From positions 1 to 46,926 of the IMG/VR virus record IMGVR_UViG_3300027513_000025: a DNA stretch of 46,926 nucleotides; one strand, written 5' to 3'. This document shows, one piece after another, positions 589-33,451 of the stretch (position 1 is the first letter of the stretch; each line of letters begins with the position of its first letter). The notes below the pieces were generated by a model that saw nothing but the letters and a program-made list of their open reading frames with translations, ran no database searches and was not told the origin of the DNA. Made by a program: the position numbers and the translations under genes. This stretch comes from a virus.

Positions 589-843
589 GTGACTGTCCCA
601 CCGCACCGCGCCCAACTACTGGTCTGTCACCAGCAGATCGCGGTCGGCCATCAGGGGCCGCTGGAAAGCCGCGCCGATTGGGAGCACAGCCGCAAGCAGT
701 TCTGCGAGCTGGGTGCGTACGCGTGGTGCTTCGATGACGACATGTACGTGTGCGACATCCACCTGAACAGCCGCCACCGGGACCACGACCACTACGTCGA
801 GTTCCCTACGGTGCGACGTAGGGCTGCTGGGCCAGCTGGCTGA
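589..843 (+). CDS. Small Cys/His-rich protein, 84 aa
   Basis: This GTG-start gene follows the surface-protein gene by 9 bases. A GGAGG sits upstream, though at about 12 bases its spacing is long. The product has three cysteines (in LVCHQ, AWCFD and YVCDIH) and many histidines, which fits a small zinc-binding fold. I do not recognise a family. Its last 38 bases overlap, tail to tail, the end of the giant minus-strand gene. It is probably co-transcribed with the surface protein as a two-gene accessory unit. A competing TTG frame at 583 gives a less protein-like product. Confidence 0.55.
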   Translation: MTVPPHRAQLLVCHQQIAVGHQGPLESRADWEHSRKQFCELGAYAWCFDDDMYVCDIHLNSRHRDHDHYVEFPTVRRRAAGPAG

Positions 844-3800
844 AGGCCTCCTCCGGCTCGACCGCCTCGGGCGGCACGAATGGTGCGGCCTGCTGGCTGA
901 TCGGCACCCCGGTGTGACCGGCGTTCAGGATGTTGCTGATCTGGTTGCTGGCCTGCTGAAACACGGCATCGCCCAGCCCGAAGGCTTGGCTGATGCCAGC
1001 CGTGGCGGTGGTGGCCGCACTAGCCGGGCCGAAGGCGTAGTTGCCCATCTCCCTGACCGTCTCGCCGAAGGTTTCGAGGTTCTGTAGCGGAGCGTCCGGG
1101 TCACCTGAGGCCATCGCCTGCACATGCTCGGCATCCGCCTCGGCCACGCGGCGCGCCCACAGCGGGGCGTTGACCGGGATCTCCCACGGTAGGGCCGGGG
1201 TCAGCATGGCCAGCAGGTGGAAGAAGTCCTCGCGCTCCACCATCTCGCGCCGGAAGTCCTCGTCGTACTGCTGCTGCATCATCACCTGCCGGTAGATGTT
1301 GTTGGACAGCGCCAGCCCACCCAGCGGGGCCTCGATGCCGAACGGGGTGCGCACGAGGAAGCGGGTCAGCTCGGGCAGGATCTTGCCCCACATGTATGAC
1401 GCCGGGTACAGCCCGAGGTAGGGGTGGTTGATGGAGCGCTCCAGCGTGTTGCGCCCGCGTCGGTAGTAGTGCAGCGCGAAGGCGTTGTCCTCGGCAGCGC
1501 TGAACGCGTACTTGGCCGACTGGTACAGCGCCTCCTCCTGCAGGTTGTAGTGGGTGCCGATGTCGATGGATGAGCCGGGGCCGGTCTTGGGCAGCTCGGG
1601 CCGGGCCGGGATGGTCAGCTCGTCACCCAGCTTGCGCATGGCATCGCTGATCGGAGCGAGGCTGACCGATGCCGGAGGTGGCTTGCTGGGCATGGCCCGC
1701 CCCTCCTCCAGCGTCTTGGCCGCACGATCCGCCGCGTCCTGTGCCTTGGCCTGCTTGGCCGCTGCCTTGATGCGCGCCTCGCTGGCGGCCTTGGCCTTCT
1801 GTTCCAGATCGGTGAGCGGCGTACGACGCCGGGCACCGCGCATCTTGGCTCCCGTGTCGCTGGTCGCCTTGCGGGCACGCTTGAGTTCGCCCTTCAGGCG
1901 CTTGATCTCGGCTGAAGCGGCTTCAGCTGAAGCGCGGCGACGGGCCGCAGTGCGGCCAAGGTTGCCCGCACTACGGGTTCCAGCTGCCGCTTGCCGCCGG
2001 GCTTCAGCCTGCGCGGCTTCAGCTTCAGCCGTGCGTAGTGCGCCCTCGGCGTTCTTGGCCGCTTCCTCCAGCTGGGTCAGGCGGTCCATGGCCTCACCGT
2101 GGCGTGCCTCCAGCACATCGGCCTGTGTCCGTCGCCGGGCCCGGGTCAGCGCGGTGCGCTCATTGGCCTCGATCCGTTCAGCTGCACGGAGTTCGTTGTT
2201 GGCCTCGCGCAGCGGAGCCTTGGTGCGCTCTACCGCCCGGCGGCCCTTGGCAATCGCCTGATTGCGGGCCCGCTGGGTCTGGGCCGACAGGAAGCGCTGC
2301 TGTGCGGTCTTGTCCATCCGATTCCACTGGCGGCGCACGTACTCGAACGGGCCACGCAGCGGATGGCCAGCCTGCATGCTGCGCAGGTAGACCTCCATCT
2401 GGTCCGCGAACCACTCGCTCATGTCGGGGTGCCACACCCGCCGCTGGCTGCCAGTGGCCGCACGGAACTCGTTGATGATGACCTGCTTCTGGGACGGATC
2501 GAGCGTGGCCTCCAGCGCGTGGGTGATCTCGTGCAGACCGGTCTTGGCGTTGGTCTTCTGGGTAGCCAGCAGGATGCGGCGGGCGTCATCCATCATCACG
2601 TTGGCCCCCAGATAGGCACCGTCCTGCTCGTGGAACAGCATCGAGAACGACGGGTCTTGCGGGCTGCGGCGGCGGGTCAGGCCGATGCTCTGGTCGAGGT
2701 CATACGGTGAGCGCTTGGGCATGGACTCGATGCCCCGCGTGATCGACACGTGCGGGTCGAACGGGATGCCCTGATCACCGCGCACGTGGTCGAACTTGAG
2801 CCACTGCCACTGGCCACCCGGCAGCTGGGCCACGTCGTCGGCAGCCGCCTCGTAGCCCGCACCACGCAGGCGATCCACCTCGTGCTGGCGCAGCGGGCCG
2901 TCGAAGTAGTCCCACATCCGCTGGTAGTCGCCACCCCACTCCATGACCTTGCCGTTGGTGGCCGCCACGTGGCGCAGCACGTCCTCGTTGTCATACATCT
3001 CGCGCTTGGCGCTGTCGCTGATCAGGCCCAGCCGCGAGCGCATGTGGGCCAGCTTCTCGGGGCCCCACTCCATCTTGAGGTACTTGCCGCTGACGAGGCT
3101 GATGTTGCGAGCCTCGGGCGACGGAAAGGCCGACTTGCCACCGGCCAGCACCCGGTCCAGCTCGTCGTGCAGGCGGCGGGCGTAGCCACGGGACAGGCCA
3201 TCGGTCAGGCCCGGCGGGCCAAAGCCCTTCTTCCACTCGTTGATGGCCCACGCGTAGTCGGGGTCGTCCAGCATGTAGTCGAACTGGCTGGCATCGACGC
3301 CCTCGCCGGGTGGCACGTTCTCGTCCAGATAGCGCGCACGCTGGTAGCGCGGACGGCTGACGGTGGTGAAGCGGCGCGGCTTGATCTGTGCGGTCTTGAC
3401 CGTGAAGTTGCTGCTGCGAGCGTGCATCAGGTCGATCTGCTCCTGAATCTGCTCAGGCGTGAAGCGGTCGGCATAGCGCGGATCGAACATGCCTCCCGCC
3501 GGTGAGCCGATGTCCACCTCGGACGGGTCGATCCAGACCTCCACGAAGTTGGTGCTGTCGGGATCGGGCATGGCGGTGCTGAACCAGATGGCGTTGGGCT
3601 CGCCATACGTCTCGCCCTTGGCGTGCTTCACGTCCAGCCCGTTGCGCTGCACGGCGTCGATGTCGCGGGTGTAGTGGTACGCCCGGATCTTGCCGGGGCG
3701 GGCCTTGCTGCTGCCGGGCGGATCGGGCAGCGGGTAGCGTCCCAGCTCGCCGCGCTTGTGCGCCATGCTGACCGTGTAGCGCACGCCGTGGGTATCCAAG

Positions 3801-6800
3801 GCCGCACGGGTCATGCCCGCCGGGCTGACGGTCTGGCCCGCCAGCAGTGCGGTCTTCATGTCGATGCCGGGCAGCACGCTGGCCATGCGCATCACGTACT
3901 GGTCCATGCTCTCCCAGTCCTGCTGCTGCAGGAACAGCTGCACCTCCTCCGACTCGTCGGTCCACGGCCCCTCGGTCAGCCACTTGATGACCCGACCCCA
4001 CGTGCGGGAGGTGTTGCTGCCCCGGTAGCGCAGGTTCGGATTGGCGACCGCCACGAAGTCGGATAGCTCGGATTCAGCGTACATGCCGGTGGTGATGGTG
4101 GCGGTCGGGTAGGGAGTGACCGTCACGCTCAGGCTGCGGCTGGACTTGTTCAGCCCGTCAGCGCTGTCCAGCTGGGCCTGCAGGGTGCGAGCCACTTGCT
4201 CGCGCTGCTCGTCGCTGGTGGCCGCACGCATGCGCTCGTTGGCGTTGCGGGCGAAGTCATCGACGGCGGTGCGCTGCTCGGCGTCCAGCCAGCGCATGTG
4301 AGCGGTGTGCAGCGATGGCATGTAGCCACCCTCGTCCAGCTGGAAGGCCATGCCCAGCGCCGACTCGTCGCTCTTGTAGGCGGGCGGCAGCGTGTTGCGG
4401 ATGCGGATGGCGCGGTCGAACTCGTCGCCCATGCCACCGACCAGCATGCGCTGGCGGGCAAAGGCACCCTCGGTGGCCTCCAGCCCAGCATTGGCGGTGT
4501 GTGCCGCCCAGCCGAACATGTTGAAGCGGGCGTGGCTGCCGGAGATGTTCTTGGCCACGCTATCCCACACGCCGTGCATGAGGTCCAGCCACAGGTCAGG
4601 GTCAGAGCTGTACACCTGCGACGGGTTGGGGCGCTGGGACTTGTAGCCCTGCTTGTCCCACAGCGTCATGCGCCCCCGGTTCCTTACCCAGTCTCGCCCT
4701 CCGTAGAGGTGGAGGGTGGGACGCCCGGCGAGGGGCTGGGCGGCGTACTCGCCGGGGACTCGGAAGTCGGGGACGGACTGGCCGCTGGCACGGAGTTCGG
4801 CGATGCGGGCGTCGAAGGCGTCGGGCGCTTGGCGGCGGATGGCGTCGCCGAGGACGTTGGTGAACCTTTCGCCGAGCCCACGTTCCAGTTGCCCCGCCAC
4901 GTCTGGGGCGTACTGACGGATCTCCGCGAGGAGAGCTTGCCCACTCGGATCTGCCTCCCAGTCATGTGAGACGCGGGTGAAGTCCACCACGTCAGGATTG
5001 ACCTCGACACTGTAGTCGAACGCTGACAGATCAGCCGTCAGCAGTTCGGCCTCCAGCTCGTCGGTGTAGAAGTCATCCAGCACCACGCTGCCTTCGGTGC
5101 GGTCGATGTCGCGGATGAACTGGATGGCAGTGCGGCCATCAGTCCGTGTGACCACCATGCTGCCCTGTCCGCGCAGTGCGGGTGTGGCCTTGGAGATGGC
5201 CCGCTGCAACTCGCTGGCCTCGGCATCGGTCAGCGCCCGGTCGGCGGTGTAGTGCAGCGCCCAGCGCTCGCCGACCGCATGGTTAGCCACCGTGCGCCCG
5301 GCCTTGACCCGCGAGCCGTATACCTCGGCCTGCCGCAGCAGGTAGGTCAGCGAGGCGGCGTAGGCGCGCTCACCCTCGCGTGAGCCGAACACCTCGTGCA
5401 CGCTGTTGACGTTCTCGTAGAAGTCACCGGGTGGCGAGATCCAACCACCCTCCGCTCGCCGCACGTCGGCCACCCCCACGTGCAGGGCCGGAGCCAGCTC
5501 GGCACGCATGAAGTTCTCGACCGTATCCATCGCCACCCGCTTGCCGTCATCGGGCAGGTCGATCAGCCAGTCCAGATACTTGGTGTCGTACTCGAAGGCG
5601 GTGGTCTGCCCGGCCAGCGGGTGGACCTCGGGTGGCAGCGAGGCGAAGTGGGCCGGGTACTTCTGGGCCAGATGCACCGGCGGGTTGGCGGCGAAGGCAC
5701 GGTGCGCCTCGGCCAGCTCGACCGGATCGGTGGGCAGGTTGAAGTCGCGCACGGCCTGATACTCCCAGCCCAGCTGGTCGGCCACGCGCTGCACGCCGGA
5801 GGTGGTGGCGATGGAGTCGAAGCCCGCCAGCCAGTCCTCGTCGGGGTCACCGTAGTAGTAGTTGCTGGTGGCGCGCAGGTGGCGGTAGTCGGCGTTGGCC
5901 GCAGCGCGCCACTCGGTGTTGATCCAGCTGCGCACCTCGTTCCAGTACTCGTCGGCACTGTCCATGGTGGCCATCGCCTCGTCCAGCGACAGGCCGGTGG
6001 GCGGCACATCAGGCGGCACCTCGCCGATGATGTCCTCCAGCCCTTCACGGAAGCTGCCGCGTCCGAACAGGCCCTGCGGTGGCAGCAGGCGGTGGGTCAC
6101 GCCGGGAGCGGTGATCCACAGCTCGGCAGCGTCGTACTGGGCGGCAGTGCCCATGTCGGCGGGGGAGAACGGATTGAGGGATGGGTGGTTGTGGATCAGG
6201 ATGTGGTTGCCCTCGCGCAGCAACGGCAGGTGCGGGTTGATCTCGTCTCCCAAGCCCGCACCAGTCACCATGCCGTTGGGGTGCTGCAGCCAGCCCTCGT
6301 CCTGCAGGCCCTCGGCGAGGATGTTGCCGTCGCTGTCGATGATGGCGAAGTGCTCGCGGTCGGCGAAGCGGGTCTTCTTCCTGAAGTTGTCGATGGCGGC
6401 TGACACGCTGGTCGGCACGCCCTCGCTGGCATCGGCGGCCCGGTGCATGAACTGGAACACCTTGCGCTGGGTGGCGTCCAGTGCGGCCAGTGCCCGCTCG
6501 TCAATGCCCATCGGCACGTCGGCCATCAGGGTCGCCAGCAGCTCATGCTCGGGCTTGCCCATGGTGGCTGCCCGGGCGGTGAAGAAGGCACGGGCCGACT
6601 CGGTGGCCTTGGGGTCGCTCAGGCCCAGCGTGTCGGTGTAGTGCGCCCACCACTCCTCGGGGCTGTACGGCGAGCTGGCGGTGCTCCATGCCCGGTTGAC
6701 GTACTCGGGATGTGCGCCCTTCTCGATCATCCGGTTGCGGAAGATGTCCTGCGTCAGCTCGCCGGAGCGCACCCGCAGCTGCAGGTCGGCAACCGTATCG

Positions 6801-9800
6801 ACATCCTCGAACATGGTGACCACACCATCGAGGTCGATGGCCGCACGCTCGCCCAGATCGGGAGCCTTGAGCAGTTCGATGAAGTTGTCGTAGTTCTGCA
6901 GGTCCGGCCCAGCCAAGCCGCGACTGGCCTTCTCCAGCAGCCAGCGCACGCCGACCTCACCGGCATCGTCGGTCTTGTAGTGGGCCATCATCTTGGGCAT
7001 GAAGCTGGGGTCCACCTGTGCCCAGCTGTCAGTCAGGCGCTTGCCCAGCTCACGGCGCAGGGCACGCGCCGTGTTGACTTCCTTGACCCGCTTCACATTC
7101 AGGCGACCGCCCACCGACAGCATATTGCCCAGCTTGCCCAGCCGGGTGCTGGGGCCCATCAGCTTGCGACCGGCCTCGGCTCCCCACAGCGCACTGCGCC
7201 CGTACTCGATCTGGTCAGCTGGCGCGTACTTGGAGTCGCGGAACAGCATGTCGGCCAGATGCAGGGTCTGCTCGTCGTAGCTGAACTTCTCGCCGTTGAC
7301 CATCACCGTGTCAGGCTGGAAGCCGGGCTTCACGCCGCGCATGATGTTGAGGATGAAGGGCTCCATCAGCTCCTGCATCTGGAACAGCGGGTTGAGCGTG
7401 AAGCGCACCAGCGGGTAGATCTTCTCGGTCATCACCCCCAGCCAGTTTGTCTGGCCACCCATGCCCGACTTGAGCTTGCCGGTGAACTTCTGGGTGGCAC
7501 CCACGTGGCGGGTGCGGCCCTCGAAGGCGATGTTCAGGGCCTCGACCGCACCGCGATGGCCGATGGCGTCTTGTATGTCCTGCGGCAGCCCATGAGTGCG
7601 CACCAGATTCCAGATCTGCTCGCCGTCCAGACCGCGTGGCGTGACGTTGTTCTCACGCGAGAAGCGGATGACGCGGCTGAACAAGGCATTGGCGCGGTCC
7701 TGTGGGATGCCGTACTTACTGGACAGGTGCTGGGCCATGCGGATGCGAGCGTCGTTCATGATCCGCGTGCCACGCACCTCGTGGAACAGGAAGTCCTTGG
7801 CCACCGTGAAGCGGTTGTAGGGCTTGATGTCGGAGGCGGTGCCGATCAGCTCGGTCCATGCCGAGATGCCGACCACCTGCCCATCGGCTTCTGTGACCCT
7901 CCACATCTGCTCGGGACGCAGGGCGGGGCGGTAGCCGAGGTCAGAGTTGCGAGCCACCCAGTCGCCCAGCCCGGGGCCCAGCTTGGCGATCTGGGCATCG
8001 GTCAGCTCGGCGGGCAGCGCGTTGTTGTCGATCCAGTCAGTCAGCAGTGCGGTCACCTGCTGGCGCAGATCGGCGTCGCTCTGGTCGGCAGCCACGTTGC
8101 TGAACAGGTCGCCATAGCGTTCCACGTCTGCGCGCACTGCATCCATGTCGCCGTTGTCCAGCTTGTCGAGCACACCACGTGCGCCCTGCATGGTCAGCTG
8201 GCGGGGGCCAATCGGGGTCAGCCGCTCGGCATCGGGCAGTGCGCTCTTGATGGCCATGTCACGTGCGGCCAAGAACTCCTCGGTGGTGTGCCCGAAGTAG
8301 GCGGCGTCGATCAAGGCCGCACCATCCCGATCCAGCTTGGCACTCAGCTCGACTGCCTCGTCGGGACTGGCTCCCAGCAGCTCCAGCCGCTTGCGCGCCT
8401 CCTCGCGTGCCCGCACCAGCCCGCCCTCGGTGCGGTCCAGATACAGCGGCTTGACGCGCAGCGCCAGCTGCTCGATGTCGTCAGCCACGTCCTTGCCGCG
8501 CACGCCACGCTGGCCCGCCTCGATCAGCTCGTCAGGCGTGTGTGCGAAGTCAACCGTGCCGCGCCGCCGGATGTCGTCCACCAGCCCGTTGCGGAAGTAG
8601 GTGCGGGTCAGGTTGCTGACGTACACGCCCAGCCCACGCTGGGCACGCGCACCCGTCTCGTTGGGCAGCGCGTTGAGCGCATCACGGACCCCAACGAAGG
8701 TGTCCAGATCGTAGGCACGCAGCACACCCTCGGCGGTGTGCGAGCTGAAGATGGTGTCGGCCAGCTTGCCGGGTGCACCGACCCCGAACAGGCGCTGCGG
8801 ATCGTTGAGGGTGCGGATGGTGGCCATCACCGGTCGCAGTGCGGGCTCCCACGTCTGGTTCCACTTCTGGATGTAGCTGGCCGCATCCATGGCCTCGTTG
8901 AACTGCGAGGCGTACTTGCTCTGGCTGCCCACCTCACGCATGGCTTGGAACTGCAGCCCCGGATCGGCCTGCATGGCCGCACGCGCACGGTTGACATCAC
9001 CCAGCTGCGGCACCAACCGCACCGCCGCCTCGGCCATCTCCTGCTCGACTGCCGCCGGATCACCGAACAGCTGCAGGAACTTGGCGGAGCGCGCCATCTG
9101 CCCGGCCTTGAGCGACTTGCTGGCAAGGCCGCTGACCCCACCCAGAATCAGCCATGGGTCGGTGGCCAGTGACACGGCGATGTCGGCGAGGCCCTGCCCG
9201 GTGACCAGCCCTTCCTGATCGGGGTCGCCAGCGTCACGCAGCAGCTGGTTGCGGACCACGATCTCGTCCATCAGCTTGTCTCGCGTGGTGCGCGCACCGA
9301 TGGTGCCGAAGTCGCCACGCTCCAGCCGCTGCTGCAGCTCCTGATAGAAGGGGTTGCTGATCTCCTCGTCGGGACCGGCGCTGCGGGCGGCCTCCTCGAT
9401 GGCCTCGATGGACGGCAGTGCCGCGCCACCGAAGGCACGCATGATGGCCTGCTGTGGCTTGGCCAGCAGCACCTGCATGGCCAGTCCCAGCTGGTCGGTC
9501 AGCGCCACCGCTGGCCCCACGTCACCCATCAGGCCTGTCATACGCCCGGCCTGCACATCACGCGACCACTGGCTCTTGGCGGCGTGGCTGTACATCAGGA
9601 TGCCGTTGAGCGGGTTGTCGCGGGTGCTCTGGTTGTACTGCTCCATGATGTCGGGGTCGATGCCGCCCGGGCGCATGTGGACCGGCAGGCTGGACAGCAC
9701 CGCCAGCGGCAGGCCAGCCACGTTGCCGATGGCCTCCATCGGCAGATCCACCACGCTGCCCACGAAGCGGCCCAGTCCGGCGACCGCCTCGTTGCCGGTG

Positions 9801-10165
9801 AAACCGGCCACGCCGCCCAGCAGTCCCTCGAAGAAGCCAGCCTCCTCGAATGGCTGACGCGGCATGGATGGTGCGGCCAAGTTCATGGCGTCCGGTCGCC
9901 CCGGCCCGTGGGCCGGTGGCATCAGGTTGACCCCGAACTTGCCGATGTTCTGGTAGGCGCGGCCCTTGTCGAACTGGTAGATGTCCAGCGGCCCGGGCAC
10001 GATGGGCTTGGTGGGCACGCTGCTGGTGCCATACGGCACGCCCTGCGCCGGAGCACTGAACTGGCTCTGGCTCTGCTGCAGGAAGGGGGTCGGGAAGCGG
10101 ACCCGATACGGGTTGCCGCCACTGCCGCCCCGGCCCGGGAAGCGAGGACCGCCGTAGCCACCCAT
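806..10165 (-). CDS. Giant multidomain 'polyvalent' virion protein, 3119 aa (JAMM, ART-like, zincin, coiled coil)
   Basis: The largest gene, about one fifth of the genome. The N-terminus is Gly/Pro-rich, then glycine-rich hydrophobic stretches at about 110-170 and long helical regions. A JAMM/MPN metalloprotease motif lies at residues 1325-1328 (HNHP, followed by SPADM). An ADP-ribosyltransferase-like segment begins YHYT at 2163-2166, with NGL and then IWFS following. A zincin motif HEITH is at 2545-2549, with SEWFADQ downstream as a plausible third-ligand region. A charged Ala/Arg/Glu coiled coil spans about 2630-2770. The C-terminus has further hydrophobic segments. Large chains mixing these domains match the published class of polyvalent proteins, thought to enter the cell with phage DNA. 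Its place after the portal, where MuF-type proteins usually lie, fits a head-packaged ejected protein. The start overlaps the upstream stop (TGATG), implying translational coupling. N4-type virion RNA polymerase motifs were looked for and not seen. Confidence 0.9.
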   Translation of the reverse strand: MGGYGGPRFPGRGGSGGNPYRVRFPTPFLQQSQSQFSAPAQGVPYGTSSVPTKPIVPGPLDIYQFDKGRAYQNIGKFGVNLMPPAHGPGRPDAMNLAAPSMPRQPFEEAGFFEGLLGGVAGFTGNEAVAGLGRFVGSVVDLPMEAIGNVAGLPLAVLSSLPVHMRPGGIDPDIMEQYNQSTRDNPLNGILMYSHAAKSQWSRDVQAGRMTGLMGDVGPAVALTDQLGLAMQVLLAKPQQAIMRAFGGAALPSIEAIEEAARSAGPDEEISNPFYQELQQRLERGDFGTIGARTTRDKLMDEIVVRNQLLRDAGDPDQEGLVTGQGLADIAVSLATDPWLILGGVSGLASKSLKAGQMARSAKFLQLFGDPAAVEQEMAEAAVRLVPQLGDVNRARAAMQADPGLQFQAMREVGSQSKYASQFNEAMDAASYIQKWNQTWEPALRPVMATIRTLNDPQRLFGVGAPGKLADTIFSSHTAEGVLRAYDLDTFVGVRDALNALPNETGARAQRGLGVYVSNLTRTYFRNGLVDDIRRRGTVDFAHTPDELIEAGQRGVRGKDVADDIEQLALRVKPLYLDRTEGGLVRAREEARKRLELLGASPDEAVELSAKLDRDGAALIDAAYFGHTTEEFLAARDMAIKSALPDAERLTPIGPRQLTMQGARGVLDKLDNGDMDAVRADVERYGDLFSNVAADQSDADLRQQVTALLTDWIDNNALPAELTDAQIAKLGPGLGDWVARNSDLGYRPALRPEQMWRVTEADGQVVGISAWTELIGTASDIKPYNRFTVAKDFLFHEVRGTRIMNDARIRMAQHLSSKYGIPQDRANALFSRVIRFSRENNVTPRGLDGEQIWNLVRTHGLPQDIQDAIGHRGAVEALNIAFEGRTRHVGATQKFTGKLKSGMGGQTNWLGVMTEKIYPLVRFTLNPLFQMQELMEPFILNIMRGVKPGFQPDTVMVNGEKFSYDEQTLHLADMLFRDSKYAPADQIEYGRSALWGAEAGRKLMGPSTRLGKLGNMLSVGGRLNVKRVKEVNTARALRRELGKRLTDSWAQVDPSFMPKMMAHYKTDDAGEVGVRWLLEKASRGLAGPDLQNYDNFIELLKAPDLGERAAIDLDGVVTMFEDVDTVADLQLRVRSGELTQDIFRNRMIEKGAHPEYVNRAWSTASSPYSPEEWWAHYTDTLGLSDPKATESARAFFTARAATMGKPEHELLATLMADVPMGIDERALAALDATQRKVFQFMHRAADASEGVPTSVSAAIDNFRKKTRFADREHFAIIDSDGNILAEGLQDEGWLQHPNGMVTGAGLGDEINPHLPLLREGNHILIHNHPSLNPFSPADMGTAAQYDAAELWITAPGVTHRLLPPQGLFGRGSFREGLEDIIGEVPPDVPPTGLSLDEAMATMDSADEYWNEVRSWINTEWRAAANADYRHLRATSNYYYGDPDEDWLAGFDSIATTSGVQRVADQLGWEYQAVRDFNLPTDPVELAEAHRAFAANPPVHLAQKYPAHFASLPPEVHPLAGQTTAFEYDTKYLDWLIDLPDDGKRVAMDTVENFMRAELAPALHVGVADVRRAEGGWISPPGDFYENVNSVHEVFGSREGERAYAASLTYLLRQAEVYGSRVKAGRTVANHAVGERWALHYTADRALTDAEASELQRAISKATPALRGQGSMVVTRTDGRTAIQFIRDIDRTEGSVVLDDFYTDELEAELLTADLSAFDYSVEVNPDVVDFTRVSHDWEADPSGQALLAEIRQYAPDVAGQLERGLGERFTNVLGDAIRRQAPDAFDARIAELRASGQSVPDFRVPGEYAAQPLAGRPTLHLYGGRDWVRNRGRMTLWDKQGYKSQRPNPSQVYSSDPDLWLDLMHGVWDSVAKNISGSHARFNMFGWAAHTANAGLEATEGAFARQRMLVGGMGDEFDRAIRIRNTLPPAYKSDESALGMAFQLDEGGYMPSLHTAHMRWLDAEQRTAVDDFARNANERMRAATSDEQREQVARTLQAQLDSADGLNKSSRSLSVTVTPYPTATITTGMYAESELSDFVAVANPNLRYRGSNTSRTWGRVIKWLTEGPWTDESEEVQLFLQQQDWESMDQYVMRMASVLPGIDMKTALLAGQTVSPAGMTRAALDTHGVRYTVSMAHKRGELGRYPLPDPPGSSKARPGKIRAYHYTRDIDAVQRNGLDVKHAKGETYGEPNAIWFSTAMPDPDSTNFVEVWIDPSEVDIGSPAGGMFDPRYADRFTPEQIQEQIDLMHARSSNFTVKTAQIKPRRFTTVSRPRYQRARYLDENVPPGEGVDASQFDYMLDDPDYAWAINEWKKGFGPPGLTDGLSRGYARRLHDELDRVLAGGKSAFPSPEARNISLVSGKYLKMEWGPEKLAHMRSRLGLISDSAKREMYDNEDVLRHVAATNGKVMEWGGDYQRMWDYFDGPLRQHEVDRLRGAGYEAAADDVAQLPGGQWQWLKFDHVRGDQGIPFDPHVSITRGIESMPKRSPYDLDQSIGLTRRRSPQDPSFSMLFHEQDGAYLGANVMMDDARRILLATQKTNAKTGLHEITHALEATLDPSQKQVIINEFRAATGSQRRVWHPDMSEWFADQMEVYLRSMQAGHPLRGPFEYVRRQWNRMDKTAQQRFLSAQTQRARNQAIAKGRRAVERTKAPLREANNELRAAERIEANERTALTRARRRTQADVLEARHGEAMDRLTQLEEAAKNAEGALRTAEAEAAQAEARRQAAAGTRSAGNLGRTAARRRASAEAASAEIKRLKGELKRARKATSDTGAKMRGARRRTPLTDLEQKAKAASEARIKAAAKQAKAQDAADRAAKTLEEGRAMPSKPPPASVSLAPISDAMRKLGDELTIPARPELPKTGPGSSIDIGTHYNLQEEALYQSAKYAFSAAEDNAFALHYYRRGRNTLERSINHPYLGLYPASYMWGKILPELTRFLVRTPFGIEAPLGGLALSNNIYRQVMMQQQYDEDFRREMVEREDFFHLLAMLTPALPWEIPVNAPLWARRVAEADAEHVQAMASGDPDAPLQNLETFGETVREMGNYAFGPASAATTATAGISQAFGLGDAVFQQASNQISNILNAGHTGVPISQQAAPFVPPEAVEPEEAFSQLAQQPYVAP

Positions 10166-19998: not shown

Positions 19999-21453
19999 AT
20001 GCCACGGATCGTCTACCCCACACTCGCTGACCTGCAGCACGTGGCCACCACCAAGGGTGGCGGCAGCACCGCGCAGGTTGACCAGCACAGCGTGCTGGCT
20101 GTCGGGGCCGCTGCCCTGACCCTGACCGTCACCAGCACCGACCACGCGGTGAGCGTCGAGGTTCACACCACGCTGCCGGGATCGGCACGAGCGCTGACGG
20201 TCAACACCTACGACTACGGCAAGAGCGCTGCCCGCACCAGCATCCCGGCTGAGGTCGTGCAGCGGCTCAACGCCCTGCTGCGCGACGAGGGCGTCGAGGT
20301 CCGCCGCGACTGGCGCACTGGTGGCCACGACCTGCGCTGGGGTCAGGCACTGAAAGCCCCGCTGCTGGCTGGTGGTGCGGTCAGGCTGGTGGCACCCGGT
20401 GCCACCGGCCCCGGCGGCTGGTCGGGCAAGTCAACCGCCAAGCGCCGCACGGCTGGCACGCTCCGCACGACGAGGGCTGCCAGCACGGTGCCCGCACCGG
20501 CCACGGCGGCTGCTGCGGTGCCACCGCTGACGGCCAGCGTGGCCACCCCATCGGTGGGCGTGGCTCAGGCACCGGCTGCCAAGCCCGCACCGGCCAAGCG
20601 TGCTGCCAAGCCCGCACAGTCTGACGTGATCATCTCGAAGGACATGCGCGAGGCGTGGGCTGAGGCCCGGGCCATGGCCGCTGACGGTGACCCGTGCGTG
20701 CTGTTCCTGACCGGGCCGACTGGCACCGGCAAGACAACCACCGTCGAGGCTCTGGCTGAGGCTGAGGGCCTGCGCCTGATCAAGGTCAACGGTGACGGCA
20801 AGGTCGAGCCTGCCGAATGGTTCGGCGGCATGGCCCAGAGCGTCACCGACGAGAACGGCCAGCGCTACTACACCTTCGCCCCGACCGAGTTCTGGGAGGC
20901 CCTGACCAGCCCAGAGCCCAGCGTCGTGCTGGTTGACGAAGTGAACCGTGCCAGCGTGCAGGCTGCGGTGGCGCTGCTGCCGGTGTTCGACTACACCGGC
21001 ACCGTGACCGTGCCCCAGACCGGGCGCTCTGAGCGCGTCAACAAGCAGGTGCAGATCGTGTGCACTGCCAACGTGGGCAGCGAGTACAGCGTCGGCACCC
21101 AGCCGCTGGACCCCGCACTGAGCGACCGGCTTGAGTACCGGGTGCCGTTCGACTACCTGAGCGAGACCGACGAGGCGGGGCTGATGATGACCCGGTTTGG
21201 GCATCTGGGCCTGCAGGCCGATCAGGCTGCCAAGGTCGCACGCTGTGCGGCCCAGATCAGGCAGAGCGCCAAGTCTGGCCTGCACGCTCCCCTCAGCACG
21301 CGGCTGGCACTGCGCTGGGCGCACGCCATCGCCAAGGGTGCCGATCCTCGCCGCGCTGCAGAGCGCGCCGTGCTTCGCCACTACAGCCACGAGGGCGGCG
21401 GCTCGTCTGAGCAGGCCAAGGTCAGGACCATCCTGTCAGGCGTGGTCTGGTAG
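19999..21453 (+). CDS. MoxR/CobS-type AAA+ ATPase, 484 aa
   Basis: An AAA+ motor of the MoxR/CobS type, which usually works with a VWA-domain partner to remodel or metallate proteins; the next gene encodes such a partner. Walker A GPTGTGKT is at 239-246. Walker B VVLVDE is at 309-314. A sensor-1-like CTANVGSEY and an arginine-finger region DPALSDRLEYRV follow. The first 210 residues are an Ala/Pro-rich N-terminal extension not needed for ATPase activity. The ATG at 19999 is chosen because AGGAGACACG precedes it; an upstream in-frame ATG lacks this. No cobalamin genes are present, so cobalt chelation is unlikely as its real role. Confidence 0.9.
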   Translation: MPRIVYPTLADLQHVATTKGGGSTAQVDQHSVLAVGAAALTLTVTSTDHAVSVEVHTTLPGSARALTVNTYDYGKSAARTSIPAEVVQRLNALLRDEGVEVRRDWRTGGHDLRWGQALKAPLLAGGAVRLVAPGATGPGGWSGKSTAKRRTAGTLRTTRAASTVPAPATAAAAVPPLTASVATPSVGVAQAPAAKPAPAKRAAKPAQSDVIISKDMREAWAEARAMAADGDPCVLFLTGPTGTGKTTTVEALAEAEGLRLIKVNGDGKVEPAEWFGGMAQSVTDENGQRYYTFAPTEFWEALTSPEPSVVLVDEVNRASVQAAVALLPVFDYTGTVTVPQTGRSERVNKQVQIVCTANVGSEYSVGTQPLDPALSDRLEYRVPFDYLSETDEAGLMMTRFGHLGLQADQAAKVARCAAQIRQSAKSGLHAPLSTRLALRWAHAIAKGADPRRAAERAVLRHYSHEGGGSSEQAKVRTILSGVVW

Positions 21454-21471
21454 GCCGCACCAACTGTCGAA

Positions 21472-21489
21472 ACCGGGCTGAGGCCCGGT
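21472..21489 (+). terminator. Hairpin after AAA+ ATPase gene
   Basis: ACCGGGC and GCCCGGT pair around a TGAG loop, 18 bases after the stop codon. There is no T-run, so it may be a weak terminator, a processing site or an mRNA stabiliser. Similar hairpins follow the next two genes. Confidence 0.4.
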
Positions 21490-21551
21490 CTGCGTCGGGT
21501 GGCTCCCGGCGCACTGACGACGACAAGCCAAGACAACCACAGGAGACACCG

Positions 21552-23711
21552 ATGACCGCACAGGGACCAAGCGCCGACTCGACGCTCGACAGGACGCACG
21601 CGCCTGCCGTGATCGAGGCGGTGGACAACATCTGGTTCGGCTGGGACCACGACGACAGCACCACCGTCGAGGCCACTGAGGCCGCACTACGCCAGACCAG
21701 CAGCATCGTGAACGCCCTGACCGGCGGGCACGCCTACAGCGTCGGGCTGGCCACTGGTGGCACCGCCTACACCGACTTCGACAACCGCGTGGTGAAGGTC
21801 ACCGGCGCAGCGCTGCGCGACCTTCGACTGAGCATGGCAGAGCGGCTGGGCGTGACCAGCGCGCTGGCAGTGCATGAGGCTGGGCATGCCCGCCTCAGCG
21901 GTGCCATCAGCCGTGCGATCCAGAAGCACTACGGCGTGCGGCCTATGGCTGACCGCGTGCTGGCCCAGCGCTTCTCGAACCTGATCGAGGACGTGCGGCT
22001 GGAAGCCCGCACTGTCGAGACGTTCCCGGCCTTCGCTGGCCTGTTCGACCTCGCACTGTGGTGGGTGGCCCAGCGCTACCCGGCTGGCAGCATCACCCGG
22101 CTGCCGGGTTCGCGTGACGAGGCCTTCTCGCTGGCGCTGGCTGCCAACCGCTACGACCTGCACACCACGTGGGCTGCGGACGCAGCGCTGCAGGCAGAGC
22201 GCACGTGGTGGCAGGATTGGGCCAAGCGTGCCACCAGCGGCAAGGCCAGCGACAAGAGCCCGCACCATCTGGCAGCCGTGGCTGAGGCGCTGGATCGCAT
22301 CAGCGGCCTGCCGGTCGAGGCTCCGGTGGTGCAGCCGGGAACGCAGCCGCAGCCCAGCGAGGGCGACGGTGACGGTGAGGCTGGCGACGAGGGCGACGAC
22401 GAGTACGATCCTGACGCCCCGGCCACCATCGACGAGGCTGGCGACGAGGCGCAGCGTGCCGACGAGCAGGGCGACCAGCGCGACGAGCAGGGCGAGGCTG
22501 ACGGCAGCGCTGAGGGCGAGGCTGACGGCAGCGCTGAGGCTGAGGGTGAGGGCAGCGAGGCCAGCCCTGACGCCAAGCCGGAAGGGCCTGCAGGCAAGCC
22601 CAGCGAGGGTGCCAGCCAGAACCCTGACACGCTCAAGGGTGCCGACCGCCCGACCGAAACCAACAGCGTCGAGGCTGAGACTGACCGCGACGCGCTGGCA
22701 GAGCCGCTGCCCGCACACGTCACCGATGCGCTGACCCACGACGAGCGCACCACCGACGCGGCCATGGCCAGCCAGATTGCCCGCACGCGTGCTGCACGTG
22801 GCGGCATGAGCGAGAACCGGGTCGAGCGCCTGACGGTGACCCATCCTGACGGCAGCACCGCCACGGTCGATATCACCGACCGCGTGCCGACCACCCCCAG
22901 CGCTGATGGTGCGGCCTTCATGGCCTTCGCCAGTGGCACCGATCCTGACAACGACGGCCTGAACCTGCGGCCCTCGTACAGCGCACGGCCTGAGGTCGCG
23001 GTGGATATGGGCGCTGCGGCCATGGTGCGGGCTGCCTTCGTCCAGACCCGCACCCACCGCACCAACCGCAGCATCGCGGCCAGCGGCTCACGCCTGCTGG
23101 ATCGCAAGGTGGCAGCCACCGCGTGGGGTGACCCGCAGGTGTTCGTGCGCCGTGGTGCGCCCAGCCCTGATCAACTCAACGTGCACCTGCTGATCGACGC
23201 GTCGGGCAGCATGCACGGGGCCAACATGACAAAGGCCATCCGCATCGGGGCCACGCTGGTCGAGGGCCTGCGCCGCATCCCCGGCACCCGCGTGACGGTG
23301 TGGTCGCACAACACGGCCAGCGGTGCTGACGCCAGCGTCAACCTGCGGCTGGACACCCGGCGCGGGGACAGCGTGGCCAAACTGGCCAGCATCGGTGCCG
23401 GTGGTGCCAACCGCGACGGCACCGCCATTGCCGCACTGACACAGGGCCGCATCATTCCCGGCACTGAGGCCCGGGAGCGGGCGCTGCTCATCGTCATCAG
23501 CGACGGTGCGCCGTGCGAGAGCGAGTCCTACGTGGCCGGTGCGGTCAACACCGCACGCAAGGCTGGCGTCGGGGTCATCAGCGTGGCTATCGACAACGGC
23601 CTGACCGAAACGCAGCAGCAGTGCTACGGACGCGAGAACGTGGTCGAGTGGAAGGGCAACTGGATGCTGGCCACGCGGACCATGGCCCAGATCATGGGGC
23701 GGCTGGCCTGA
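21552..23711 (+). CDS. VWA-domain protein with HEAGH zincin motif (CobT-like), 719 aa
   Basis: Partner of the upstream AAA+ ATPase. The C-terminal von Willebrand A domain has a MIDAS motif DASGS (D549, S551, S553) and continues to the end. The N-terminal third has a metalloprotease-like HEAGH at 108-112, with E146 in NLIEDVRLEA as a plausible third zinc ligand. The middle (about 260-375) is a highly acidic, Asp/Glu/Gly/Ala low-complexity linker, with DGSAEGEADGSAEAEGEG as its core repeat. This order matches CobT-type proteins in outline, but an intact HEXXH suggests proteolysis or metal-dependent remodelling. Start chosen at the ATG after AGGAGACACCG. Substrate unknown; host protein remodelling during takeover is one possibility. 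Confidence 0.9.
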   Translation: MTAQGPSADSTLDRTHAPAVIEAVDNIWFGWDHDDSTTVEATEAALRQTSSIVNALTGGHAYSVGLATGGTAYTDFDNRVVKVTGAALRDLRLSMAERLGVTSALAVHEAGHARLSGAISRAIQKHYGVRPMADRVLAQRFSNLIEDVRLEARTVETFPAFAGLFDLALWWVAQRYPAGSITRLPGSRDEAFSLALAANRYDLHTTWAADAALQAERTWWQDWAKRATSGKASDKSPHHLAAVAEALDRISGLPVEAPVVQPGTQPQPSEGDGDGEAGDEGDDEYDPDAPATIDEAGDEAQRADEQGDQRDEQGEADGSAEGEADGSAEAEGEGSEASPDAKPEGPAGKPSEGASQNPDTLKGADRPTETNSVEAETDRDALAEPLPAHVTDALTHDERTTDAAMASQIARTRAARGGMSENRVERLTVTHPDGSTATVDITDRVPTTPSADGAAFMAFASGTDPDNDGLNLRPSYSARPEVAVDMGAAAMVRAAFVQTRTHRTNRSIAASGSRLLDRKVAATAWGDPQVFVRRGAPSPDQLNVHLLIDASGSMHGANMTKAIRIGATLVEGLRRIPGTRVTVWSHNTASGADASVNLRLDTRRGDSVAKLASIGAGGANRDGTAIAALTQGRIIPGTEARERALLIVISDGAPCESESYVAGAVNTARKAGVGVISVAIDNGLTETQQQCYGRENVVEWKGNWMLATRTMAQIMGRLA

Positions 23712-32533: not shown

Positions 32534-33451
32534 ATGCAACCTAGCGACCCTGATTGGGGCGATGACACCATCGTCGCCGTCTATATCGCCACCTTCGCAG
32601 CACGCCTCGACCTGTACGTGGCCAACGGTGCGGGCGTCCTGCGCGAGCCACTGGAACCGGACGTGGTGCGCCGCGCCATCAGCCACCACTACCCGGTCAG
32701 CGCCTACCTCGGCAGCGAGGATGGCCACACCCCGGTGGGGGCCATCGACTTCGACACCCCCGACGGGCTGGAGCAGGCGCACAAGGTGGCTGCCTTCCTC
32801 GATGACCAGCACGACATTCCCTCGCTGGTGTGCGAGTCCCGGCGCGGCGCTCACCTGTGGGTGGTCAGCCTCGATGAAGTGACCACCGGCCAGATGCACC
32901 GCATGCTGCGTGCGGCCATCGCACTGGCGCTCGATGACAAGACCGCACGTGATCCACTGGTCGAGATCTTCCCGCACATCGGTGACGGACTGGCGGTGGG
33001 CGCACTGCGTCTGCCCGGCATGCCGCACCACAAGACCCAGCAGGTCTACCCGATGTGGGACAGCCACAAGCAGGACGTGGAACCCGGCTTCCGCTCCCTG
33101 ATCGAGCGCACGCAGTTGACGACAGGGACCAGTATCAAGCGGCTGGCAGGTAGTCAAACCCCTCAGCTGCCTGCCAGCTATCCGAAGCACCGCACCCTCG
33201 GCAACTTCTTCGGCTTCCGCAAGCCGTACGACGGCCCCAACGTCAGCGCCAGCGAGGTACTGATCCAGCGTTGGGGCATTGCTAATGCCCGCCCGGGCAC
33301 CACCGTCAAGTGCCCGCTGCATGACGACCGCGTGCGCAGCCTGACGATCATGAAGGACGACAGCCGCGTGTACTGCGGCTCGCCCTCGTGCGGCCTCAAC
33401 AACGGTGGCCACGGGCTGGGCTCCATCCAACTGGAGAAGATCGCATCATGA
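32534..33451 (+). CDS. Archaeo-eukaryotic-type primase with zinc domain, 305 aa
   Basis: Primase or primase-polymerase of the AEP superfamily. The catalytic metal pair is visible in GAIDFDTPD (D72 and D74), and the nucleotide-contacting histidine in RRGAHLWVV (H107). A C-terminal zinc domain follows, with CPLH (from C260) and later CGSPSC. The RecA-fold helicase gene two positions downstream completes a primase/helicase replication module. GGAGACACG precedes the start. Because no phage DNA polymerase is seen, it may do more than priming, but that is conjecture. Confidence 0.8.
   Translation: MQPSDPDWGDDTIVAVYIATFAARLDLYVANGAGVLREPLEPDVVRRAISHHYPVSAYLGSEDGHTPVGAIDFDTPDGLEQAHKVAAFLDDQHDIPSLVCESRRGAHLWVVSLDEVTTGQMHRMLRAAIALALDDKTARDPLVEIFPHIGDGLAVGALRLPGMPHHKTQQVYPMWDSHKQDVEPGFRSLIERTQLTTGTSIKRLAGSQTPQLPASYPKHRTLGNFFGFRKPYDGPNVSASEVLIQRWGIANARPGTTVKCPLHDDRVRSLTIMKDDSRVYCGSPSCGLNNGGHGLGSIQLEKIAS

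Follow-up and report, generated by a model that had tools for sequence, protein, structure and literature searches.

Phage genes for an AAA+ ATPase and a CobT-like protein with a VWA domain are found side by side in many viral genomes, and the question raised by one such locus is whether the two products form a cobalt-inserting enzyme or a machine of another kind. The locus lies in an IMG/VR virus record (IMGVR_UViG_3300027513_000025), the whole 46,926 bases of which (67% G+C) were analysed and are called the window below. Viral cobST genes have been described as encoding a cobaltochelatase, and the annotation of cobT as a peptidase has been called mistaken (Liu et al. 2021, PMC8651126). The initial annotation of the window, made from the sequence alone, had pointed to an AAA+ ATPase beside a VWA protein with an intact HEXXH motif and had proposed a potential active zinc protease that might unfold and cut a host protein as infection begins. 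Here we confirm this observation and find partial support for its interpretation: on the grounds of sequence conservation and structural models, we lean, with moderate confidence, towards reading the pair as an ATP-driven zincin of the viral 'CobST' family, that is, a putative metal-dependent protein-processing machine. The pair itself was already known; the reading based on an intact zinc site appears to be new, and in the literature collection searched no paper joined CobT and HEXXH.

A candidate zinc site in the CobT-like protein

The 719-amino-acid protein consists of an N-terminal, predicted zincin-like domain with the sequence HEAGH, an acidic linker and a C-terminal VWA domain (Table 1). 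Taken alone, an HExxH motif is weak evidence, about 0.02 such motifs being expected by chance in a protein of this length and composition; HEAGH is judged real because it is conserved down to 10-20% identity. Relatives came from named phages and from profile scans across viral and genome collections, and since one of the two scan patterns applied to the collections was an HExxH peptide, the invariance of H108, E109 and H112 is partly selected. Among 68 aligned N-terminal domains, which share 10-44% identity with that of the window and for which HE..H, unlike D147, was a selection criterion, the columns of H108, E109, H112 and D147 are invariant and N143 and E146 are conserved in at least 90%. 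The variants HEVGH, HETAH, HEKLH and HEIGH, which the HExxH scan pattern could not match and which were recruited through the VWA pattern, are common. In five loci (L062, L069, L073, L074 and L084) HExxxH (HECAGH or HEAAGH) replaces HExxH, and the downstream NxxED is kept.

Covariation was analysed in an alignment of 90 rows and 446 columns, with HE..H present in 65 rows and absent from 25. D147 occurs in 65/65 rows with HE..H versus 5/25 without it, and N143 in 61/65 versus 2/25; the two rank highest of the 446 columns (Fisher p about 1e-15 for their tracking of HE..H, a statistic that ignores shared ancestry). The corresponding counts for E146 are 59/65 and 13/25, and none of the 90 rows keeps both histidines without E109. 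The residues of the metal ion-dependent adhesion site (MIDAS) of the VWA domain, D549, S551, S553 and D651, are constant in both sets (65/65 and 25/25). Since the MIDAS is constant and N143 and D147 track HE..H, loss of the site removes HExxH, N143 and mostly D147 and leaves the MIDAS in place. This pattern of conservation indicates that the putative zinc site is under selection.

The initial annotation had named E146 as the partner acid of the motif. The residue is present, but the conserved acid is its neighbour D147: at the position of E146, relatives carry D (L167, L194, L144), Q (L141), R (L008), A (L007) or, in Vibrio phage ICP2, V, all with D147 unchanged. Because E146 varies, even in the nearest relatives, while D147 stays, and because it tracks HE..H far less than D147 does, E146 was rejected as the best candidate for the third metal ligand, and D147 is the likelier one. 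On the tree, the state of HE..H requires six changes, three of them forced by the starred branches, which yield only three independent pairs, too few for significance; in nearly all pairings D147 follows HE..H, whereas E146 mostly shows no difference.

Predicted structure of the N-terminal domain

The AlphaFold model of the N-terminal domain (mean predicted local distance difference test score 86) supports a zincin-like fold. Its leading matches in the PDB are selecase, abylysin and jannalysin, the VIA-align rows also include HtpX, ZMPSTE24, a SPRTN-like entry, ArdC and IrrE, and the PDB list as a whole is dominated by zincins. With the minigluzincins (selecase, abylysin and jannalysin) and HtpX (M48) the model shares the sheet, the HExxH helix and a second helix; unlike the viral protein, the solved entries name no AAA+/VWA partner, and the matches are individually weak. 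Among viral structures, the model matches phage CobT proteins and an open reading frame of a Haloarcula virus.

The AAA+ partner

The ATPase belongs to the NorQ/CbbQ/CobS-like class of the MoxR clade, with matches to AAA_5 (9e-14) and CbbQ_C (2e-9) in Pfam and to phrog_249 (9e-27) in PHROGs. Walker A, Walker B, sensor 1 and arginine finger are all present, as expected of MoxR-clade AAA+ proteins of the NorQ/CbbQ type; the roles of N358 as sensor 1 and of R377 as arginine finger are presumed from membership in the family. The best matches of the ATPase model are NorQ chains, in complex with the NorD VWA domain, and CbbQ chains (Foldseek E about 1e-17), the NorQ-NorD complexes ranking first. Against the CobS equivalog profile TIGR01650 the window ATPase scores 19.7 bits, with a cut-off of 558.55, and is thus not CobS at the equivalog level.

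Distribution of the gene pair

The ATPase/VWA pair is a real, widespread unit. Among 130 loci with a VWA open reading frame of at least 480 amino acids, an ATPase is encoded nearby in 112, upstream and on the same strand in 107 of them. In twelve of the 18 loci with no nearby ATPase, the contig extends less than about 700 bases upstream of the VWA gene. The remaining six are L013, L121, L137, L116, L124 and L140; L116 and L124 are Asgard-archaeal loci with an ATPase match on the opposite strand, and in L140 the ATPase lies 5.5 kb off. Relatives in named records include Bacteroides phage BS162P1, a fecal phage and a Jeotgalibacillus plasmid record; the N-terminal domain of the window protein has no named-phage match at E 1.

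Degeneration of HEXXH in relatives had been named by the initial annotation as evidence that would speak against a protease. It does occur in a clade of about 120-kb phages (many of L009-L050), which keep the pair and the MIDAS but have QN..L or RN.. in place of HE..H, and in the sampled chromosomal CobTs, but not in most relatives. Among phage proteins annotated as CobT or as porphyrin biosynthesis proteins, HExxH is kept in ICP2, SSU5, CRP-810 and RHEph10 and lost in Pseudomonas phage nickie.

Three further observations concern individual relatives. A Firmicutes copy of the pair (L099, Blautia) lies near genes for SSB, a MazE/MraZ-like protein, a DNA methylase fragment and an NAD-dependent ligase. 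In a relative from the closest clade (L007:5671-8229) the N-terminal and VWA parts are in different frames around 7416-7486, through an assembly error or a frameshift. A ribonucleotide reductase match in CP009417.1 (the L006 record; 451914-453899) is interrupted by 14 in-frame stops, which may mark an intron or an intein.

Comparison with CobT and related systems

The window protein matches Pfam VWA (41.2 bits) and CobT_C (PF11775; 26.4 bits, cut-off 21), both over the cut-off, and has no match to the N-terminal CobT domain PF06213. A profile built from 26 family members matches the solved CobT 9uka_G at 1e-53, NorD at 1e-18 and midasin at 6e-7, the NorD match beginning only past the N-terminal region, and PF06213 is matched by 5/26 members. 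The clear match to true CobT that the initial annotation had listed as unfavourable to its proposal is thus found at the superfamily level, but in the sampled true CobTs the zinc site is missing. Eleven PF06213-matching loci come from one bacterial class: seven (L201, L203-L207 and L209) group in one supported clade that lacks HExxH, L202 (37.8 bits; the same Halomonas gene as L140), L208 and L210 keep HExxH, and L211, which lacks it, is a long branch placed apart from the CobT clade. An HDA motif conserved in sampled CobT was not taken to correspond to HExxH, as the profile alignment sets the two apart.

Several known systems resemble the pair in part. The cobaltochelatase subunits CobS and CobT (9uka; TIGR01650, PF06213, PF11775) share with it the VWA domain, the CobT architecture and the AAA+ partner, but the sampled chromosomal CobTs, besides lacking HExxH, usually lack D147. 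No cofactor genes had been noticed near the pair; in keeping with this, CobN was found neither in the window record nor in any of the 57 records searched (mostly virus records, some of them fragments); a host CobN is possible. The viral cobST cluster (PMC8651126) has the same two-gene layout of AAA+ and VWA/CobT genes in tailed viruses whose hosts belong to several orders; it was read there as cobaltochelatase subunits, whereas the zinc site conserved here suggests that the peptidase annotation may be nearer the truth. NorQ/NorD and CbbQ, MoxR AAA+ proteins with a VWA partner, are the nearest structural relatives of the ATPase. Proteins with DUF2201_N (PF13203), the 'putative metallopeptidase domain' of Pfam, and a VWA-like domain carry HExxH followed by NxxxD in matching register, together with a VWA-type motif encoded in the same open reading frame, but the profile-profile similarity is weak (29% probability, three sequences only); membership in PF13203 was rejected, there being no profile match in the window record.

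Genomic context in the window

Both genes lie where the initial annotation had placed them, and the Pfam matches agree with their identification. The ATG of the ATPase gene is preceded by AGGAGA, a GTG 42 bases farther upstream also lies in the open frame, and 98 bases separate the two genes.

Table 1. Features of the gene pair in the window
Feature	Position	Strand	Residues	Remarks
AAA+ ATPase gene	19999..21453	+	484 amino acids	ATG at 19999, stop ending 21453
ATPase domains		+	1-131; about 136-206; about 207-482	N-terminal beta-rich; disordered linker; AAA+ core
Walker A, GPTGTGKT	20713..20736	+	239-246	G239, G242, G244, K245 invariant, 23 aligned sequences
Walker B acid pair	20935..20940	+	D313-E314	invariant, 23 aligned sequences
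Probable sensor 1 (TAN)	21070..21072	+	N358	invariant, 23 aligned sequences
Probable arginine finger	21127..21129	+	R377	invariant, 23 aligned sequences
CobT-like VWA protein gene	21552..23711	+	719 amino acids	ATG at 21552, stop ending 23711
HEAGH	21873..21887	+	108-112	candidate zinc ligands H108/H112, candidate general base E109; modelled helix 95-115
NLIEDVRLE, second half of putative site	21978..22004	+	143-151	D147 likelier third ligand, N143 coupled; modelled helix 132-157
Low-complexity acidic linker	22335..22706	+	about 262-385	from sequence; relatives have acidic linkers too
VWA domain	23178..23708	+	543-719	MIDAS DASGS 549-553 and D651; Pfam VWA at residues 543-684

The pair had been said to lead an early operon. 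It does come first in a plus-strand block that includes genes for an exonuclease, an Erf/Rad52-like annealing protein and a primase/helicase-like ATPase, but 'operon' and 'early' are still conjectural, and a search for a sigma-70-like promoter found none. A PADLOC search for known defence-system proteins gave weak AAA-level matches only and no match for the VWA protein. The MoxR-vWA ternary conflict systems (PMC7159879) include a conserved third component, namely VMAP, iSTAND, FtsH or a beta-propeller; in the window, the neighbouring proteins were scanned against Pfam and PHROGs. A 3119-amino-acid open reading frame on the minus strand (806-10165) is unmatched in PHROGs and in Pfam (E 0.01 for both) and adjoins an equally unmatched one of 997 amino acids, and a plus-strand stretch (32534-33451) weakly resembles the TOTE archaeo-eukaryotic primase domain, its 23.3 bits falling short of the cut-off of 27. 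By their capsids, the nearest phages are Streptomyces phages, at ~31% identity, so that an actinobacterial host is only a guess.

Discussion

Under the favoured reading, the AAA+ protein would form a hexamer of the NorQ/CbbQ type, as its model and family suggest, and the VWA domain would dock on the ATPase ring via the metal of the MIDAS, like NorD on NorQ. H108, H112 and probably D147, all parts of the conserved site, would bind a metal, and E109 would activate water; a target captured by the VWA protein could then be exposed or deformed through ATP hydrolysis and cleaved by the zincin-like domain. In several phages the pair adjoins replication and recombination genes, and in the Jeotgalibacillus record, SSU5, nickie and RHEph10 its neighbours include DNA polymerase or ligase genes; this location suggests a role in replication, host takeover or counter-defence.

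The proposal that the viral CobS and CobT join a host CobN in inserting cobalt and increase cobalamin during infection (PMC8651126) draws on clear superfamily membership, evident from the CobT_C match and the similarity to the solved CobT. The pair is nevertheless probably not a cobaltochelatase, because the sampled CobTs, members of the same family, have no zinc site, whereas most viral members keep theirs, and we hold the proposal to be improbable. None of the records searched encodes CobN, although the proposal relies on that of the host, the window ATPase falls far below the CobS cut-off, and the N-terminal domain is without a PF06213 match. A ribonucleotide reductase large-subunit match in 25/53 searched records might seem to favour a need for vitamin B12, but these records include both intact and lost zinc sites, which makes the enzyme uninformative on this point, and it is absent from the window and its five nearest tree neighbours. 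That the HExxH/D site instead carries cobalt or another metal into a tetrapyrrole or an enzyme would agree with the family tie to a metal chelatase and with the metal-site signature; since chelation is possible without the site, as sampled chromosomal CobT illustrates, and E109 is retained together with the histidines, such a metal-delivery module is very improbable. A chaperone-like remodeller of a phage or host complex, in which the zincin-like domain would be a metal-stabilised substrate-binding module and no hydrolase, is also unlikely, though less so than either: MoxR/VWA pairs have been described as chaperone and co-chaperone (PMC7159879), and the clade of about 120-kb phages retains the pair without the zinc site, but a structural metal site needs no E109, and in the 90 aligned rows the two histidines are never both kept in its absence.

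Several points weigh against an ATP-driven zincin. Because the pair is kept in the about 120-kb clade without the site, it has at least one role that is independent of the zinc site, and in that clade, at least, there is a non-proteolytic role. The fold matches are modest one by one (best Z 7.0, best Foldseek E 0.18), none of them is decisive, and the similarity of the model to zincins could reflect a common arrangement. The assignment of the third ligand is based on covariation, and the 90-row tree comes from a quick search and has long end branches and no inferred root. As the tree is unrooted, the direction of change rests on the zincin-like fold and on the DUF2201_N proteins with their HExxH and NxxxD in the same register.

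With these points considered, the potential protease site, conserved alongside the ATPase in many phages and placed in a zincin-like modelled fold, still agrees best with the proposal of an ATP-driven zincin. More tentatively, and with rather more doubt than confidence, most of the viral CobS and CobT proteins assigned to cobalamin biosynthesis might constitute a family of ATP-powered zinc proteases of phages and mobile elements, from which cellular CobT would have been derived by loss of the protease site. Reports on phage cobS and cobT treat them as auxiliary metabolic genes for vitamin B12, and if most viral CobTs keep a working protease site that the sampled true CobTs have lost, these annotations would need revision; many phage genes labelled 'vitamin B12 biosynthesis' may encode ATP-driven proteases.

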